Source: Lysinibacillus irui (GTDB taxonomy: Bacteria > Bacillota > Bacilli > Bacillales_A > Planococcaceae). From it: a stretch of DNA of 64,000 nucleotides. Below the pieces are notes generated by a model. That model did no database searches, was not told the origin of the DNA, and was given only the letters and a program-made list of their open reading frames with translations. This document shows, one piece after another, positions 12,287 to 21,570 of this stretch (its first letter is position 1; each line of letters opens with the position of its first letter). Location: positions 1,419,501 through 1,483,500 of the forward strand of contig NZ_CP113527.1 in the NCBI RefSeq assembly GCF_028877475.1, written 5' to 3'. Both the position numbers and the translations under genes were made by a program.

Positions 12287-12375
12287 TAATTGTCAATTAG
12301 TTAAAATAAATTCTGTTATTATAAGAAAATAATATTTGAAGATTACGAGGATTATTGTTATAGTATGTGCTGAAG

Positions 12376-12582
12376 GGCAGTATCCATTGTGAACGGCACC
12401 TTCACAAGCGCAAGATCCAATACAACAAATATCTGCCTTGATCTTTTCAGACAGGGACGGAAGAAAACACGCGTTCAACATAGCTGCTAGCTATCGCCTC
12501 TTGTCAACACTTCATCAAGAGGTATTTTGTGACGAACGAAACACTACCCTTCTGTCTATTTTCGAAAACAGAAGGGTTTTTC
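12376..12582 (+). ncRNA. Structured 5' leader with terminator upstream of panB
   Basis: An approximately 200-nt stretch without a credible ORF precedes panB. It contains an outer stem GGCAGTAT (12376-12383) with ATATCTGCC (12429-12437, one bulge). Within it is a TGTGAA/TTCACA hairpin (12388-12406). Further on is a perfect CCTCTTG/CAAGAGG hairpin (12497-12522), and finally an intrinsic terminator (ACCCTTCTGT with ACAGAAGGGT plus T-run, 12546-12582) that ends only about 30 nt before the panB start. A terminator this close inside the leader implies premature termination control of panBCD. A 'pan' RNA motif is known upstream of panB in Firmicutes, but I cannot confirm that this is one. Confidence 0.55.
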
Positions 12583-14307: not shown

Positions 14308-14691
14308 ATGTTACGAATGATGATGAATAGTAAAATCCACCGTGCAACAGTGACACAGGCCGATCTAAATTATGTCGGCTCCATAACAATTGATGAAGAT
14401 ATTTTAGATGCGGTAGGTATGCTGGCGAATGAAAAGGTACATGTCGTTAACAATAATAATGGAGCCCGCTTTGAAACATATATTATTGCTGGTGAGCGAG
14501 GTTCCGGTGTAATTTGCGTTAATGGCGCAGCTGCACGACTTGTACAACGTGGCGATATTGTAATTATTATTTCCTATGTATATGTGGATAATCATGAGGC
14601 AAAAGAGCATAAACCAACCGTTGCTATTATGGGTGAGGGTAATAGGATTAAAGAAATGATTACACATGAGCAAGAGGCAACAGTAATGTAA
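14308..14691 (+). CDS. panD: Aspartate 1-decarboxylase
   Basis: Pyruvoyl enzyme making beta-alanine from aspartate for PanC. The start at 14308 ([12 protein letters not shown]) gives 127 residues, the family length. Self-processing Gly24-Ser25 is present in YVGSITID, along with K9 and the [16 protein letters not shown] core. The last 201 bp (14491-14691) recur at 19001-19201 with about 11 substitutions, so this gene may be a hybrid whose 3' end came with the inserted cluster. It appears fully functional. Confidence 0.96.
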
Positions 14692-15103
14692 TTTCAGTGT
14701 AGCTTTACATGATGATTAAGAGGTAAAAGTAGTAAGATGTATTTCCTAAAGACTTATAGTAGATTTTTTTTGAAATATATAATTTTTATTAGTCATTTTG
14801 AAGAAGATGTTGTCTGTATTTATATAGGCAGCATCTTTTTTATTACCATTTTATATTAGAATAAACACTTATATATTTATATTTATACTTTTTTAAAAAA
14901 AAATTATAAATTCATAATTTATAGTAGAAGATTTATGTAAATAAGTTCAACTAATTATTCTATCTTAAAAGTATTAAAGAAATTAGTTTTGATTACAAAA
15001 TTTATATTAAAATGGAATTTTTTTATATTTATTGTTGACAATTGGAATGTTTTATAATTAAATGTAAATATAAGTTAATAAAAAAAGGAAGGTGTTAAAT
15101 AAT
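14692..15103 (+). other. Non-coding left flank of the inserted cluster
   Basis: About 410 bp with no credible gene. It holds one intrinsic terminator (14804-14842) and then very AT-rich DNA leading to the first cluster gene. A perfect TTGACA (15035-15040) and a perfect TATAAT (15053-15058) occur but are only 12 bp apart, too close to belong to one promoter. TTGACA with TTAAAT at 15058 (17-bp spacing) is a better but weaker pairing. Confidence 0.5.
14804..14842 (+). terminator. Intrinsic terminator downstream of panD
   Basis: Eleven-bp stem with two wobbles (AGATGTTGTCT with AGGCAGCATCT) and a T-run, 113 bp after the panD stop. Ends pan transcription before the inserted cluster. Confidence 0.8.
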
Positions 15104-15661
15104 TTGTCATATATAGAAAAAATATCCATTATTATTATATTAGGTTGTTTAACAACATTATTAATAAAAATGTTTTTACTAATAAAAAATAATAATACAA
15201 ACAATATAGTTGATTACGGTATTGAAAAAAATGATGAATTAATGACACCACTCCAATTTGGAAAGCTTATAATGAGTAGTCATTTTGAAAAATCATTAGA
15301 TATATATAAACCGAAGATTTTAATACTAATTAGTAAAGATTGCCCGTATTGCAAAGAGATTTTCGAGATATATTGGAATGAATTCCATAGTGAAATAAAT
15401 AATTATAGAGATATTTTTATATTAGTAGAAGATATTGATGAAAATTCAGAATCTTTTCTAAAACTATATGATTATAATTTCAATATACTTAAATATGATA
15501 GGCAATTTCTTGCTGAAAATTCAATTGATACTGCCCCTTCATTCATTTATTTAAATGAAATAAATGAAATAATATTAAAAACACCAAATGTATATAGCTT
15601 TTTTAATTTAGTTTATAATTCTAATTCTACATTCAAAAAAAAGGAGGAAGTATTATTATGA
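15104..15661 (+). CDS. Membrane-anchored thioredoxin-fold protein
   Basis: A 185-residue protein with an N-terminal membrane helix (about 5-28) and an outward thioredoxin-like domain carrying a CPYC active site (C80, C83, in ISKDCPYCKEI). Later DTAPSFIYLNE gives the expected cis-proline region. The TTG at 15104 is favoured because AAGGAAGG lies 11 bases upstream; a GTG at 15092 overlaps the RBS. Its stop overlaps the start of the Cys-rich peptide (ATGA), so the two are coupled. Likely forms or isomerises disulfides in that peptide. Strongly AT-rich, unlike pan genes. Confidence 0.75.
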   Translation: MSYIEKISIIIILGCLTTLLIKMFLLIKNNNTNNIVDYGIEKNDELMTPLQFGKLIMSSHFEKSLDIYKPKILILISKDCPYCKEIFEIYWNEFHSEINNYRDIFILVEDIDENSESFLKLYDYNFNILKYDRQFLAENSIDTAPSFIYLNEINEIILKTPNVYSFFNLVYNSNSTFKKKEEVLL

Positions 15662-15858
15662 GTAACTTTCTAAATAATTTGATTCAACCAGCAGCAGCAG
15701 CTTGTTCACAAAAAACTTTTTACAAATGGTGTCAAAGTCACGCAAATTGTGCTAGAGATGGAATGATAGGAACTTTGGGAAGATGGGTTGACAAGAACAA
15801 TCCGCAATGGTACTGCGATGGCACTATACAGTTTTGCAATTGTGGTTGCACTAAATAA
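15658..15858 (+). CDS. Cys-rich small peptide, probable secreted bacteriocin-like precursor
   Basis: A 66-residue peptide with a strong AAGGAGG RBS, coupled to the thioredoxin gene. The first 15 residues (SNFLNNLIQPAAAA) look like a short leader without double-glycine motif or Sec-type hydrophobic core. The rest has seven cysteines (16, 25, 31, 53, 60, 62, 64), three tryptophans (24, 43, 51) and a C-terminal FCNCGC cluster. No lanthipeptide, radical-SAM or glycosyltransferase gene is nearby, but two thioredoxins, a MauE-like protein and an ABC exporter are. I infer a disulfide-stabilised exported peptide. I do not recognise a known bacteriocin. Confidence 0.6.
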   Translation: MSNFLNNLIQPAAAACSQKTFYKWCQSHANCARDGMIGTLGRWVDKNNPQWYCDGTIQFCNCGCTK

Positions 15859-15951
15859 AAAAATAGTAGTTTAATATAAAAATTAAATAAAAAATAGTCT
15901 AATATTGTAGAATTAGAATTTATAATAAAGGTTGGACTTTAAAGGTTCAGC

Positions 15952-15988
15952 AAACCGTAGACAGTTTTCCTTTGTCTACGGTTTTTTT
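15952..15988 (+). terminator. Strong terminator between peptide and exporter genes
   Basis: Perfect 12-bp stem (AAACCGTAGACA with its complement), 9-nt loop, then a T-run. Placed about 95 bp after the peptide gene, it should make the peptide mRNA more abundant than the exporter mRNA, as is common for bacteriocin structural genes. Confidence 0.88.
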
Positions 15989-16065
15989 AGAACATTACAG
16001 CAAATTCTTCCATGGGATAGTTTCATTAAAATATAGTTTCAATAAATTATTAGGGAGAACTAAAA

Positions 16066-17835
16066 ATGTTATTTTATATAATAAATTTTTATATTAAAAA
16101 CTGTTTAAAATTATCAATTTTTAATATAATTTTAAAAATAATAAATGGATTTTCTCCAGTAGTTTCCATATATTTTTTCCAATTGTTAATTAATGAAATA
16201 ATAAATTACATAAAAGGGGAATCTGAGCTAAATAAATTAATATTTCTTTTTTTGCTTCAAATTTTACTATTAATTATTCCTTATTCTATAAATCACTTAC
16301 TTTCAATAAATGAACAAATACTTACAAATAAAGTAACCAAAATACTTACAAATGAAATTTTTTTTAAAACCTCTCAAACAGAATTTTTGAATTTTGAAAA
16401 CCCAGAATTTTATGATTCTTACCAAAGAGTCATTTCAAATAAAGAAAATTTAAATAATGCTTTTAATGCTTTGACTTATCTTGTTAGTGCTTTAATAAGT
16501 TTAATATCTTCACTGGCTTTGCTAACGATTATTGATAATTTAGTTGTAATAATAGTAATTTTGGGAGTTATTCCTTATTTCATTATTCAGCTTAAATTCT
16601 CTAAAAAGAATTTCCTATTTTTATCAAAGTTAATACCTATACATAGGAAGGAACAGTATATCTCATTTGTACTTAGCCAACGCGATATGTTAAAGGAGAC
16701 CATTATTTTTAATAGCTTTGATTTTTTTGTAAATAGATGGAATAACTATTTTCATGAATATACAGATTCCGAAATAAATTTCATGAAAATTAAAACTAAA
16801 TATCTTTTTTTATCAGAGATAATTCTAGTTCTAACATATGCTTTTTCCGGAATTATTGTAATTTTGAATTTAAAAACAAGTACTACAGCTGGGGGGGTAT
16901 TAGCAACTTTACAAGCAATACAGTTATTACAAAGCAATTTAAGCCTTTCTACTAAATATTTTTCAGATTATAAAAATTCATCTTACTTTATTAAAGATTT
17001 TCTGGAATTTGTAAAAACTCCAGGAAAATCAGAAAAGGAGTATTCTTTATCTATTAAAGAAGAATTTAGAATAAAAAATATTCAAATTAAAGATCTTTCT
17101 TTTAAATATCCAAATATGAGTGAAAATACGTTAAAAAATATAAATTTGGAAATAAATTATGGCGAAAAGGTTGCTATTGTCGGTCAGAACGGTAGTGGCA
17201 AAACAACCTTAATGAAAACTATTTTAGGCTTATATTCTAACAAAAGTGAAAATATAAAAATAAACAATATTAAATTTAATGATTTGGAAATTAAGAAATA
17301 TCAAGAAAAAATTTCTGTTTTATTTCAAGACTTTGTTCATTATGAACTTACAGTTAAAGAAAATATTTCATTTGAAATTGATGAGAATTGCGATAATTTT
17401 CGCATTAAGAATGCTATCAATAAGGTTGGCCTAACAGAATTTGTTGAGAACTTACCTCATAAGTATGACTCGGTATTGGGACGACAGTTTGAGGGAGGGA
17501 ATGAATTATCAGGAGGGCAATGGCAAAAAATTGCATTAGCAAGAGCAATATATCGTGATAGTGATTTAATTGTGTTGGATGAACCGTCTTCTGCGCTTGA
17601 TCCGATTGCAGAAAAAGAAATTATGAATAACCTTTTAAATATTTACGAAGGTTCAATTTTATTTGTTACTCATCGATTAAAAATAGCCGCCTTAGCAGAT
17701 AGAATTATAGTTTTAAAAAATGGTGTAATTATAGAAGAAGGTACTCATCAAGAATTAATAAATAAAAAAGGATATTATAACGAAATGTATAATGCCCAAA
17801 ATAACATTCATAATATTGAATTTTTAGTTCACTAA
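16066..17835 (+). CDS. ABC transporter, fused permease-ATPase (peptide exporter-like)
   Basis: A 589-residue half-transporter: about six membrane helices (1-310), then an ATPase domain with Walker A GQNGSGKTT (373-381), Q-loop FQDF, signature LSGGQ (481-485) and Walker B with D505/E506. There is no N-terminal C39 peptidase domain, so it would export but not cleave a leader. RBS AGGGAG. Placed between the Cys-rich peptide and the redox genes; export of that peptide (or self-protection) is inferred. AT-rich codon use throughout. Confidence 0.88.
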   Translation: MLFYIINFYIKNCLKLSIFNIILKIINGFSPVVSIYFFQLLINEIINYIKGESELNKLIFLFLLQILLLIIPYSINHLLSINEQILTNKVTKILTNEIFFKTSQTEFLNFENPEFYDSYQRVISNKENLNNAFNALTYLVSALISLISSLALLTIIDNLVVIIVILGVIPYFIIQLKFSKKNFLFLSKLIPIHRKEQYISFVLSQRDMLKETIIFNSFDFFVNRWNNYFHEYTDSEINFMKIKTKYLFLSEIILVLTYAFSGIIVILNLKTSTTAGGVLATLQAIQLLQSNLSLSTKYFSDYKNSSYFIKDFLEFVKTPGKSEKEYSLSIKEEFRIKNIQIKDLSFKYPNMSENTLKNINLEINYGEKVAIVGQNGSGKTTLMKTILGLYSNKSENIKINNIKFNDLEIKKYQEKISVLFQDFVHYELTVKENISFEIDENCDNFRIKNAINKVGLTEFVENLPHKYDSVLGRQFEGGNELSGGQWQKIALARAIYRDSDLIVLDEPSSALDPIAEKEIMNNLLNIYEGSILFVTHRLKIAALADRIIVLKNGVIIEEGTHQELINKKGYYNEMYNAQNNIHNIEFLVH

Positions 17836-17866
17836 ACTTTTTAAGAATAATTAGGAGGGAAGGGTT

Positions 17867-18403
17867 TTGTATTCTATTTATTGGATAAGTAATTTTCTTT
17901 TAATTTTTTTAATATTCATTTTTAGTACTTCTGCTTTGGATAAAGCAATTAACTTTAAGAAAAGTATTGTAACTTTCTCTAATTTTGGTATTAAGAAAAA
18001 ATATGCTCAAATTGCTTTAATATTTTTATTAGTCGTAGAATTTTATATTGCTATATCTTTGAAAATAATTGGCATAACTTCAATTAATTTACTTTTTATC
18101 ACTATTTTTTTTAGCACTGTATCAGTAGTAATATTCATAAATATCAAGAACGGGAAAAAAAATATTTCTTGTGGATGTGGTGGGATTTTAGAAAGTGAAA
18201 ATCTATCATATTTGATTATCTTTAGGAATATAATTTTTATTCTAATAAGCTTATGTTTATACAATAAGGAATTAGATATTTCTAATGCACATTTAATTAT
18301 TATTTTTATTGTAATAGCTTCAATAGGATTTATTAACTTATCAATAAAAAATCTTAGAATTTTCAAAAACAATATGATTAACATTATTGAAAAATTACAA
18401 TAA
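17867..18403 (+). CDS. MauE/DoxX-like redox membrane protein
   Basis: A 178-residue protein with four membrane helices and a conserved SCGCGG motif (C102, C104), as in the MauE family. In methylamine dehydrogenase clusters MauE works with MauD to form the many disulfides of the small subunit. Starts at TTG after AGGAGGG. Together with the MauD-like gene downstream it should oxidise a cysteine-rich exported substrate, here most plausibly the 66-residue peptide. Confidence 0.75.
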   Translation: MYSIYWISNFLLIFLIFIFSTSALDKAINFKKSIVTFSNFGIKKKYAQIALIFLLVVEFYIAISLKIIGITSINLLFITIFFSTVSVVIFINIKNGKKNISCGCGGILESENLSYLIIFRNIIFILISLCLYNKELDISNAHLIIIFIVIASIGFINLSIKNLRIFKNNMINIIEKLQ

Positions 18404-18434
18404 AATCTTATAAACCTATTATTAAGAGAGGAAG

Positions 18435-18971
18435 ATGAAGATGTTTATTAATTTTATTATTGGAATAATTTCAGTAGTTTTACTTGTGGAAACATATGTA
18501 ATTTATAGTTTAATTAAACTTATAAAGAATTTCTTAACTGAAATACATTCAATAAAAGGTATTCAATTTGGTACAATTGCACAGGGAGATTCAGCGCCAT
18601 TATTTAGAGCAGAAAATCAAAATAAGTCTAGAATAGTTTTAAAAGATATATTAAAAAATAATGAAGTGACTTTATTATTTTTAAGTAATAGTTGTTCTCA
18701 ATGTCAAGACGTATTAAAGAATAGTAATGAAATCTTTAATGATTCTACAAGATATACCATTATTATTATGCAAGACCAATTAAAAGAAGATATGTTCTTA
18801 AATAATGAAAAAATCAGTTTGATAGTTGCACCAGATTTATTTAAAAATTATAAAGTAACAAAAACACCATACCTTTATTTTGTAGATAAGAACGGTCTAG
18901 TGAATTTTTCTACAGAAATTTCAAATCCCAAGCATCTTAAGAAGTTATTATTATTAGAAGATGCTTCTTAA
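18435..18971 (+). CDS. MauD/TlpA-like membrane-anchored thiol-disulfide protein
   Basis: A 178-residue protein with one N-terminal helix (about 4-30), a redoxin-type entry (GDSAPLFRAENQNK, 51-64) and a CSQC active site (C87, C90) in FLSNSCSQC. KTPYLYFVD provides the cis-proline segment. This architecture matches MauD/TlpA-family proteins. Start at 18435 or the ATG at 18441 after GAGAGGAAG. Last gene of the cluster; 29 bp beyond its stop the truncated panD copy begins. Confidence 0.78.
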   Translation: MKMFINFIIGIISVVLLVETYVIYSLIKLIKNFLTEIHSIKGIQFGTIAQGDSAPLFRAENQNKSRIVLKDILKNNEVTLLFLSNSCSQCQDVLKNSNEIFNDSTRYTIIIMQDQLKEDMFLNNEKISLIVAPDLFKNYKVTKTPYLYFVDKNGLVNFSTEISNPKHLKKLLLLEDAS

Positions 18972-19000
18972 TATATAATATTGTTTTTAACAAAACGTAA

Positions 19001-19201
19001 GGTGAGCGAGGTTCCGGTGTAATTTGTGTTAATGGCGCAGCCGCACGACTTGTACAACGTGGCGATATTGTAATTATTATTTCCTATGTATATGTGGATA
19101 ATCATGAGGCAAAAGAACATAAACCAACCGTTGCTATTATGGGTGAGGGTAATACGATTAAAGAAATGATTACACATGAGCCTGAAGCCACTGTGATGTG
19201 A
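19001..19201 (+). pseudogene. panD: Truncated second copy of panD 3' end
   Basis: Aligns without gaps to 14491-14691 (panD codons 62 to stop) at constant offset 4510, with about 11 substitutions, most in the last 21 bases (PEATVM versus QEATVM). An in-frame TAA immediately precedes the homology and no start exists, so it is not translated as PanD. It marks the right border of the inserted cluster; the terminator at 19226 behind it is probably the original pan terminator. Confidence 0.92.
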
Positions 19202-19225
19202 TCAGACCATAGATAGAAGAAAGGG

Positions 19226-19259: not shown

Positions 19260-19419
19260 GATTGCATCTATTACAAAAGTAACTGGTAAAATTTTGTTTT
19301 TCTTACTATTAAACTAGTTTTTAAAATTATAATTTTACAAATGTTCTAGTATTTTGGGTCATATTTATGTAGAATTTAGTTGTAAGTACATCAATTTACT
19401 AGTGGAGGTATCATTTGTA

Positions 19420-21570
19420 ATGGAAAATAAACGTAACAAATTTTTAACAGCAACTGCTGCAGCATTGGCTGTAACTGCGGTGGCAGTAGCCCCGGCATCA
19501 GCTGCAAGTCCTTTTTCAGATGTAAAAGAAAGCCATGCAGACTTTGAAGCAATTTCTACACTTTATGCAGCAGGGATTATCAGCGGGTATCCAGATGGTA
19601 CATTCAAACCAGATACAAATGTCACACGTGGACAAGCTGCAAAAATGATTGCAGGCGCATTAAAGCTAGATACAAAAGATGTAGAGAATCCAAACTATAA
19701 AGATATTGATGTTTCTAATCCATATTACGGTCCAATCGCAGTACTTGCAGGATTAGAAGTGATTACAGGCTATGGTGATAATACTTTCCGTCCCAATCAA
19801 ACAATTACACATGGTGATTTAGCTAAAATTTTAGCGTCTATTCCAACATTACCAGAGCTAGAAAGTGCTAAAAACCACGCGGCAACTGATAAAGTTACAC
19901 GTGGACAGCTTGCAACATTGATTGCAGAAGCTTTAACAAAATCTAGCACAGAAACACCAGAAACTCCTGAAACACCAGAAACACCAGAAACGCCTGAAGG
20001 TGCATTTTCTCTATCTGTTTTACATGTGAACGATACACATGCTCGTGCGGATAAGTTACCTCAATTAGCAACAGCGGTTAAAGAGCAACGTGAAACGAAG
20101 AAAAATGTCTTAACTTTACACGCTGGTGATGCATTTAGTGGAACACTATACTTTAACGAATTCCAAGGGAAAGCAGACCTAGCGCTTTTAAATGAAATTG
20201 GCTTTGATGCGATGGTATTCGGTAACCATGAATTTGATTTAGGTTCTTCACCAGAAGGTCATCAGGCATTAGCGGATTTTGTTAAGGCTGCTAAATTCCC
20301 ATTTGTGGATGCTAATACAGATTTCTCAGCAGATGATAAATTCACAGGTTTATTTACAGACTTAGTTTCAAGTGAACCTGAAAATGGTAAAATTTATTCA
20401 GGTATTGTGAAAGAAATTGATGGCGAAAAAGTAGGTATTTTCGGCTTAACAACAGAAGAAACAATGGATATTGCTTCTCCTGATAAAGTGACTTTTACAA
20501 ATTACATCGATGAAGCGAAAAAAGCAGTAGCTGCCTTTGAAGGAATGGGTGTTAACAAAATTATTGCTTTAACACATATTGGCTACAATGATAATCCAAA
20601 TGTTGATAATGATATTTTACTAGCGAAAAACGTACCAGGAATTGATGTCATCGTTGGTGGACATGACCATACAAAATTAGAAGAGCCAGTTGTTGTTGAT
20701 ACAAACACAGTGGGTGAAGCAAAAGAGGCAACATTAATCGTACAAGCTAATGAATATGTAAATTATTTAGGTACACTTGACGTAACATTTGATGGAAATG
20801 GTGTTGTTACAGAGTATGGTGGCGAATTAATCGACCTTGGTAAAGTTGCACAAGACGAGGCTTTAGTGAAGTTACTTGAACCATTTAAAGCTAAAGTAAA
20901 TGAAGTGAGCAACAAGGAAATTGGTGTGAAAATTGCTGAGGAGTTAGCAAATCCACGTGCAACTGAAGAAAATCTAGAAAGTGTTCGTAGTAATGAAACA
21001 GCTCTAGGTAATATCATTACTGACGGTATGTTGGCAAAGGCACAAAAATATACAGATAAAACTGTTGTGATGGCATTACAAAATGGCGGTGGTATTCGTG
21101 CGGCGATTCCAGCTGGTAATATTACAGTTGGTCAAGTGATTACGGTATTACCATTTGGTAACACATTAGCATTAATGGATGTTACAGGTGCAGAGTTAAA
21201 GGCTGCATTTGAAGTATCTCTGAAAAGTGCACCAAAAGAAAATGGTGGTTTCCTACACATTGGTGGAGCGAAATTACAATATGATTCTTCAAAAGAAATT
21301 GGCTCACGTGTAGTATCTATCGAATATTTAGATAAAGCAACTGGAAAGTATGTTGCTTTAGAAGATACGAAAACATATACAGTAGCAACAAATGCTTTCA
21401 CTGCTAAAGGTGGGGACGGCTTTGATATGTTTGCTAAAGCATATGAAGAAGGTCGCGTTACAGACTTAGGTTTATCTGATTGGGAAAACCTACAAGAACA
21501 ATTACTTTCATTAAAAGAAGTAAAAACAACAACAGAAGGTCGTATTGTTGATCTTGCTAAAAAACAATAA
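19420..21570 (+). CDS. S-layer-anchored 5'-nucleotidase/2',3'-cyclic phosphodiesterase-like protein
   Basis: A 716-residue exported enzyme. A signal peptide (about 1-29, ending ASA) is followed by two full SLH repeats (about 31-80 and 90-140) and a shortened third, then a TPE repeat linker. The metallophosphatase domain shows LHVNDTHAR, GNHEFD and GGHDH. The C-terminal 5'-nucleotidase domain has GNIITDGMLAK and NGGGIRA. The start at 19420 follows GGAGG; the ORF could begin at 19354 but without RBS or signal peptide. Likely releases phosphate and nucleosides at the cell surface. Not present at this locus in B. subtilis. Confidence 0.92.
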   Translation: MENKRNKFLTATAAALAVTAVAVAPASAASPFSDVKESHADFEAISTLYAAGIISGYPDGTFKPDTNVTRGQAAKMIAGALKLDTKDVENPNYKDIDVSNPYYGPIAVLAGLEVITGYGDNTFRPNQTITHGDLAKILASIPTLPELESAKNHAATDKVTRGQLATLIAEALTKSSTETPETPETPETPETPEGAFSLSVLHVNDTHARADKLPQLATAVKEQRETKKNVLTLHAGDAFSGTLYFNEFQGKADLALLNEIGFDAMVFGNHEFDLGSSPEGHQALADFVKAAKFPFVDANTDFSADDKFTGLFTDLVSSEPENGKIYSGIVKEIDGEKVGIFGLTTEETMDIASPDKVTFTNYIDEAKKAVAAFEGMGVNKIIALTHIGYNDNPNVDNDILLAKNVPGIDVIVGGHDHTKLEEPVVVDTNTVGEAKEATLIVQANEYVNYLGTLDVTFDGNGVVTEYGGELIDLGKVAQDEALVKLLEPFKAKVNEVSNKEIGVKIAEELANPRATEENLESVRSNETALGNIITDGMLAKAQKYTDKTVVMALQNGGGIRAAIPAGNITVGQVITVLPFGNTLALMDVTGAELKAAFEVSLKSAPKENGGFLHIGGAKLQYDSSKEIGSRVVSIEYLDKATGKYVALEDTKTYTVATNAFTAKGGDGFDMFAKAYEEGRVTDLGLSDWENLQEQLLSLKEVKTTTEGRIVDLAKKQ

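Follow-up and report, generated by a model that had tools for sequence, protein, structure and literature searches.

The five-gene island described here, found in a 64,000-nucleotide stretch of Lysinibacillus DNA (the window; the source genome has 4.70 Mb), probably makes a ribosomally synthesised, disulfide-rich secreted peptide, itself likely to be a bacteriocin, that would be exported by an ABC transporter and folded by a redox trio of the island's own. All five genes are present on the forward strand, 3' of panD (14308-14691), and span 15104-18971, as the initial annotation of this DNA had proposed; on the other side lies an SLH-domain 5'-nucleotidase-like gene that begins at 19354 (identified by eye). 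The GC content of the island is 22-27% (0.22-0.27 over 15-19 kb) compared with 0.34-0.43 in the 3 kb on each side, which agrees with the AT-rich composition that had been noted for it. A pan motif RNA (RF01749, 59.7 bits) is located at 12374-12464, 5' of the panBCD genes.

The island and its gene products

An AT-rich left flank (14692-15034) separates panD from the island and resembles the flank downstream of panD in two other carriers of the module, from 14692 to about 14860 in one (G057) and from 14692 to about 14809 in the other (G047). It is followed by a putative promoter on the forward strand (TTGACA-17 nt-TTAAAT, 15035-15063), which was read from the sequence by consensus and is found in G057 too. 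The first gene (15104-15661) encodes a membrane-anchored protein of 185 aa with a CPYC motif; we preferred the TTG start at 15104 over the GTG at 15092 because of the ribosome-binding site and the 185-aa gene call in the genome (P0004). This product had been called a membrane thioredoxin. The motif is there and a thioredoxin-like assignment is plausible because of it, with a match to the thioredoxin profile PF13098 that falls below the cut-off (18.2 bits, cut-off 27) and with ResA as the best solved relative (E 0.019).

The precursor peptide gene (15658-15858, forward strand) has a start that overlaps the stop of gene 1 and encodes the 66 residues and seven cysteines originally reported. Between this gene and the transporter gene lies an intrinsic terminator (15952-15988, forward strand) with a 13-bp stem and a T run, whose hairpin folds at -26.1 kcal/mol for 63 nt (z -6.26) and is the same in G057 and G047. 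The transporter (16066-17835, forward strand) is an MsbA/ABCB-like ABC half-transporter exporter of 589 aa that matches PF00005 and, as first described, has no C39 peptidase; across the genome there is a single C39 match, about 630 kb from the island. The C39 domain on the exporter by which a double-glycine class II bacteriocin would be recognised is absent from the island's ABC protein.

The last two genes complete the redox set. The MauE-like membrane protein (17867-18403, forward strand, 178 aa) carries CGCGG, and its earlier assignment is upheld by the match to PF07291 (54.0 bits, gathering cut-off 27). Its CGCGG loop is predicted to be cytoplasmic by the positive-inside rule, using the charge pattern over 34 sequences, and its predicted fold is a confident one, with matches that do not discriminate between the two roles proposed for MauE. 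The fifth protein (18435-18971, forward strand, 178 aa) is membrane-anchored and has a CSQC motif; it scored 25.4 bits with the MauD model TIGR02661, below the cut-off of 188.6, and is therefore named TlpA-like here, so that the TlpA-like part of the former MauD/TlpA-like label stands and the MauD part does not. The profile matches support the idea of an export and thiol-redox set dedicated to the adjacent cysteine-rich peptide, and the five island genes include no modification enzyme and no evident immunity gene, as had been stated.

A search for homologues of the peptide returned three among 5.8 billion proteins, with 54-88% identity, and among 261 genomes of the family the peptide was found in three, each of them a Lysinibacillus. 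In six aligned copies residues 1-12 are invariant, all seven cysteines are kept and residues at about 13-15 vary, with the cysteine-rich core starting at about residue 13-16; we infer a putative leader from this conservation. No named family matched the peptide, and a match to a characterised bacteriocin, which the initial annotation had given as a refuting result, did not turn up in the searches of proteins and solved chains. The comparison with PDB chains gave no match at a meaningful E, in a set that may lack laterosporulin and defensin-like chains. The fold prediction that had been recommended was run and produced a poor model (pLDDT 54.7), too weak for a fold search.

A cassette that has moved between species

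The island is a recent arrival, a cassette that has passed from species to species. Each of the 32 Lysinibacillus genomes searched contains panD, and in all three carriers the module sits between this gene and dinG. An empty site was recognised among 29 loci returned from other genomes and compared: in seven of these (L094-L098, L100 and L102, without L099) the sequence 14000 to about 14690 is contiguous with 19001 to about 20600-20700, the remaining loci diverging further downstream. The synonymous distances between the window and G057 are 1.59 for panC, 1.57 for panD and 1.69 for dinG, values near saturation for the method, compared with 0.15-0.18 for the transporter and redox genes and 0.37 for the peptide, and the contrast with G047 is alike. 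Taking both carriers together, dS from the window is 0.12-0.18 for the module, 0.32-0.37 for the peptide and 1.1-2.2 for panC, panD and dinG. Low values in the module beside high values in its flanks indicate that the cassette crossed species lines and its neighbors did not. The peptide is the fastest-evolving gene of the module in comparison with the window (dN 0.18-0.20 versus 0.02-0.08 for the other four), with dN/dS of 0.50-0.63.

The insertion adjoins an intact panD and has left a scar, a second copy of the last 202 bp of that gene's 3' end (19001-19202, forward strand), 95% identical to 14491-14692. Neither this copy nor the terminator behind the peptide gene is mentioned in the initial annotation. 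The two copies differ at 11 of the 202 positions, and relatives are split between the two states. The right border passes through GGTGAG, which is found in panD and in the G047 flank; together with the similar left flank, this leads us to offer homology-assisted illegitimate recombination as a suggestion only, because six bases may match by chance. In G047 (L005:4700-11300) two transposase-like ORFs separate panD from the module; the peptide gene there is intact, whereas the ABC frame is interrupted.

Recurrence of the gene set, the leader and the cysteine framework

Three distant MauE sequences from other genera of the family led to three more loci, each with very different cysteine-rich small ORFs; since the five-gene set recurs in other genera, its association is not a matter of chance, and the expectation that it would occur as a unit in other genomes was confirmed. 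An alignment of six MauE sequences was then searched in 398 genomes of the class (E 1e-6) and matched 42 genomes at 57 places, of which 39 were taken; the 18 left out were the weakest, except G615 (contig end), and three more loci were added from another search. Among the 46 loci examined, 35 have a CGCGG MauE and 11 have CGCYG, CNCFG or similar. The CGCGG loci come from 24 genomes of the class sample, in nine families, and from four genomes of the family searches. These loci are not independent, seven of them in one family (f22) being of one type.

An exporter-sized ABC protein (250 aa or more, no further than 4.5 kb away) is present at 33 of the 35 CGCGG loci by a count in which L015, with only a small ATPase, does not qualify. 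Besides MauE, at least one CxxC protein is encoded at 34 of the 35 loci and at least two at 22, with fewer than two at the other 13, so the view that three thiol proteins for one peptide are unusual does not hold within this kind of locus. We called a small ORF cysteine-rich under a strict rule (30-90 aa, at least four cysteines and 5%, with a ribosome-binding site and clear of any longer gene). Such an ORF was found within 3.5 kb of MauE at 26 of the 35 CGCGG loci and at none of the other nine, and the whole set of exporter, two CxxC proteins and strict-rule peptide at 18 of the 35. The same rule gave an ORF at six of the seven other loci with MauE and ABC and at none of the four MauE loci without ABC; near MauE there were 36 such ORFs in about 345 kb, whereas the periphery of these loci yielded 1 in 235 kb. 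Among the ORFs counted, at least that of L062 looks spurious.

Several side observations were made in this survey. One genome (G409) has four CGCGG-MauE loci (L066, L074, L077, L079) and another (G428) has three, which suggests a repertoire of peptides. The annotation table of an Exiguobacterium acetylicum plasmid, which is incomplete, gives names to the ABC and MauE genes, labels the TlpA-like one traF and has no entry for a peptide gene. The second kind of MauE (CNCFG and the like; L083, L085, L086, L088, L089, L091) is accompanied by ABC and leaderless cysteine-rich ORFs, several of which start MGCP or MSCP.

We picked 25 precursors by hand from the CGCGG loci, leaving out the close copies at L056, L057, L063 and L072 and the second ORF of L061; they form 21 clusters at 45% identity, and the related precursors have 32-81 aa and four to eight cysteines. 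Comparison of residues 2-11 shows that precursors at these loci share what is read as a short amphipathic leader before very different cores. For 21 precursors, the test omitting three that start MKYI/VPC and one near-duplicate, the mean pairwise BLOSUM score was 2.68; the corresponding means were -8.65 (sd 0.88) for random N-termini from the same loci and -9.84 (sd 0.69) for small ORFs, and none of 2000 draws from either set reached 2.68. When compared with the others, the leader of the window's peptide scores -0.55, a value equalled by 9 of 281 random N-termini, and is a loose member of the group. At the other loci with MauE and ABC the leader is absent (7 of 7 ORFs score -7 to -19), and it is thus a feature of the CGCGG kind. 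The three ORFs that start MKYI/VPC do so about where the leader of the other precursors ends, as though they lacked one, and so suggest that cleavage may occur immediately ahead of the first cysteine.

The cores show a framework of their own. Eleven of the 25 precursors, the window's included, fit C-x(8-12)-C-x(3-8)-C-x(17-23)-C-x(5-8)-C-x(0-1)-C. Within the last eight residues, CC or CxC occurs in 24 of the 25. The closest related precursor (L053), which comes from another family, is 42% identical to the window's and has CNCGC in common with it. With kits in nine families of the Bacilli sample and precursors in seven, we propose tentatively, and with a little less than even confidence, that there is a Bacilli-wide class of disulfide-rich ribosomal peptides, made with a portable, self-contained kit of exporter, oxidase, isomerase and a MauE electron conduit joining the last two, and carrying varied cores behind one kind of leader.

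Proposed function, alternative readings and known systems

The island would work as follows, its secreted product probably killing or inhibiting related bacteria. The precursor begins with some 12 leader residues that are similar in sequence to the related leaders, and this leader may steer the reduced precursor through a dimer of the ABC half-transporter. Outside the cell the tethered CPYC and CSQC thioredoxin-fold proteins would oxidise and reshuffle the cysteines, with MauE as their membrane partner, passing electrons to or from the membrane. A protease from outside the island would then cut the leader just before the first cysteine, and six cysteines, with the spacing common to ten related precursors, would form three disulfides with one cysteine extra. 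The terminator 3' of the peptide gene may keep the peptide transcript in excess of the transporter transcript. The seventh cysteine is odd and speaks against a three-disulfide product, and the predicted position of the MauE loop speaks against a simple DsbB-like oxidase. Also weighing against the proposed reading are the lack of an immunity gene in the island, the CGCGG loci with no strict-rule ORF or with fewer than two CxxC proteins, the absence of the leader at the other loci with MauE and ABC, the loose membership of the window's leader and the poor peptide model. Because a DsbB-like MauE would need its cysteines outside and the CGCGG loop is predicted to be inside, we favor a conduit feeding the isomerase, which is the role of DsbD/CcdA.

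A permease-peptidase fusion of 1283-1400 aa lies beside the module at four loci (L015, L060, L076, L078), with a length of 1363-1400 aa and a small ABC ATPase next to it at the first three and no ATPase called at L078; L087 has a 446-aa relative of the peptidase part and L081 an ATPase and permease pair. The L015 fusion, the one protein of this group that was run, matched Pfam FtsX and Peptidase_M1. These proteins would be candidates for the immunity protein or the leader protease. None of them is in the window's island; elsewhere in the source genome there are matches to the peptidase part and two weak ones to the permease.

The peptide could instead be a signal (pheromone) that is exported, folded and sensed by its own population, which we consider unlikely. 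Two loci (L013 and L014) have, next to the peptide gene, a divergent HTH+TPR regulator, with Opp-like permease genes nearby (identified by eye), but these regulators, used as queries in the 46 loci, matched only themselves, and the window's island contains no HTH+TPR regulator. Such regulators sense short linear peptides, which precursors of 32-81 aa with several cysteines do not resemble. A divergent HTH+TPR regulator was also considered as a general part of the kit and was dropped, being seen only at L013 and L014.

We judge it improbable that the peptide binds metal, with CNCGC as a Cu or Zn site, and acts as a metallophore or metal-tolerance factor whose thiols the redox proteins hold reduced. 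The CNCGC end, the odd number of cysteines and the predicted cytoplasmic Cys loop of MauE would suit such a role, and TlpA-like proteins often act on the reducing side; the related precursors, however, have mostly even cysteine counts, CC or CxC ends and no conserved His, and the five island genes include no metal regulator or transporter gene. It is very improbable that the five genes serve the maturation of some larger redox enzyme and that the small ORF is incidental: the PF07291 match fits, and MauE and MauD act in the maturation of methylamine dehydrogenase according to the accessible part of PMC7794033, but the peptide gene is conserved, has a strong ribosome-binding site and overlaps gene 1, similar ORFs recur at related loci, and a search of the genome for MauE at E up to 1 gave only the island copy. 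A search for the dehydrogenase light chain had no match, in a test whose control matched nowhere either.

If the bacteriocin reading and the wider class are true, they would point to a source of many disulfide-stabilised candidate antibacterial peptides in Gram-positive bacteria, encoded by tiny genes that annotation easily misses, and to a convenient experimental system in which to settle what MauE does. The production of disulfide-rich peptides could likewise profit from a kit able to fold many different cores behind a single leader.

Sublancin and other glycocins combine a cysteine-rich peptide with thiol oxidoreductases in one cluster, and also have a glycosyltransferase and a C39 transporter, neither of which is found among the five island genes. 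The mau genes share with the island a MauE-family membrane protein and a MauD/TlpA-like partner; the island differs in that its partner fails the MauD model and in that a small peptide and an ABC exporter take the place of the dehydrogenase subunits. Laterosporulin, a Brevibacillus bacteriocin, is like the island in belonging to Bacilli and in its small peptide, its ABC protein without a protease domain and its low-GC cluster (PMC3293901). As described in the accessible part of that paper, it has no leader beyond Met, MauE is not listed among its neighbors, which encode a regulator, a hypothetical protein, an ABC transporter and a dehydrogenase, and the word thioredoxin is absent from that text (PMC3293901). 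TMcin (PMC13252029) was set aside as a parallel, being in the accessible text a transmembrane peptide with a DsbA-type oxidase and a different transporter.

The island had been called undescribed. This stands insofar as the peptide falls in no named family and no account of the gene set in Bacilli was found in the open-licence literature, with subscription journals mostly outside that coverage; it does not stand in view of decRiPPter, which, in the accessible part of the paper, gave three candidate RiPP families from Streptomyces that contain mauE, one of them also mauD, each with a precursor of at least eight cysteines (PMC7794033). There MauE is suggested to take part in forming disulfides and in modifying the precursor (PMC7794033). 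As in those families, mauE adjoins a cysteine-rich precursor gene in the island; unlike theirs, the island precursor has seven cysteines, and 3 of the 25 related precursors have eight. For the Streptomyces families, that part of the text names no ABC half-transporter, leader or cysteine spacing (PMC7794033). MauE and MauD beside cysteine-rich precursors have thus already been proposed in Streptomyces, and the Bacilli set is a variant of that arrangement.
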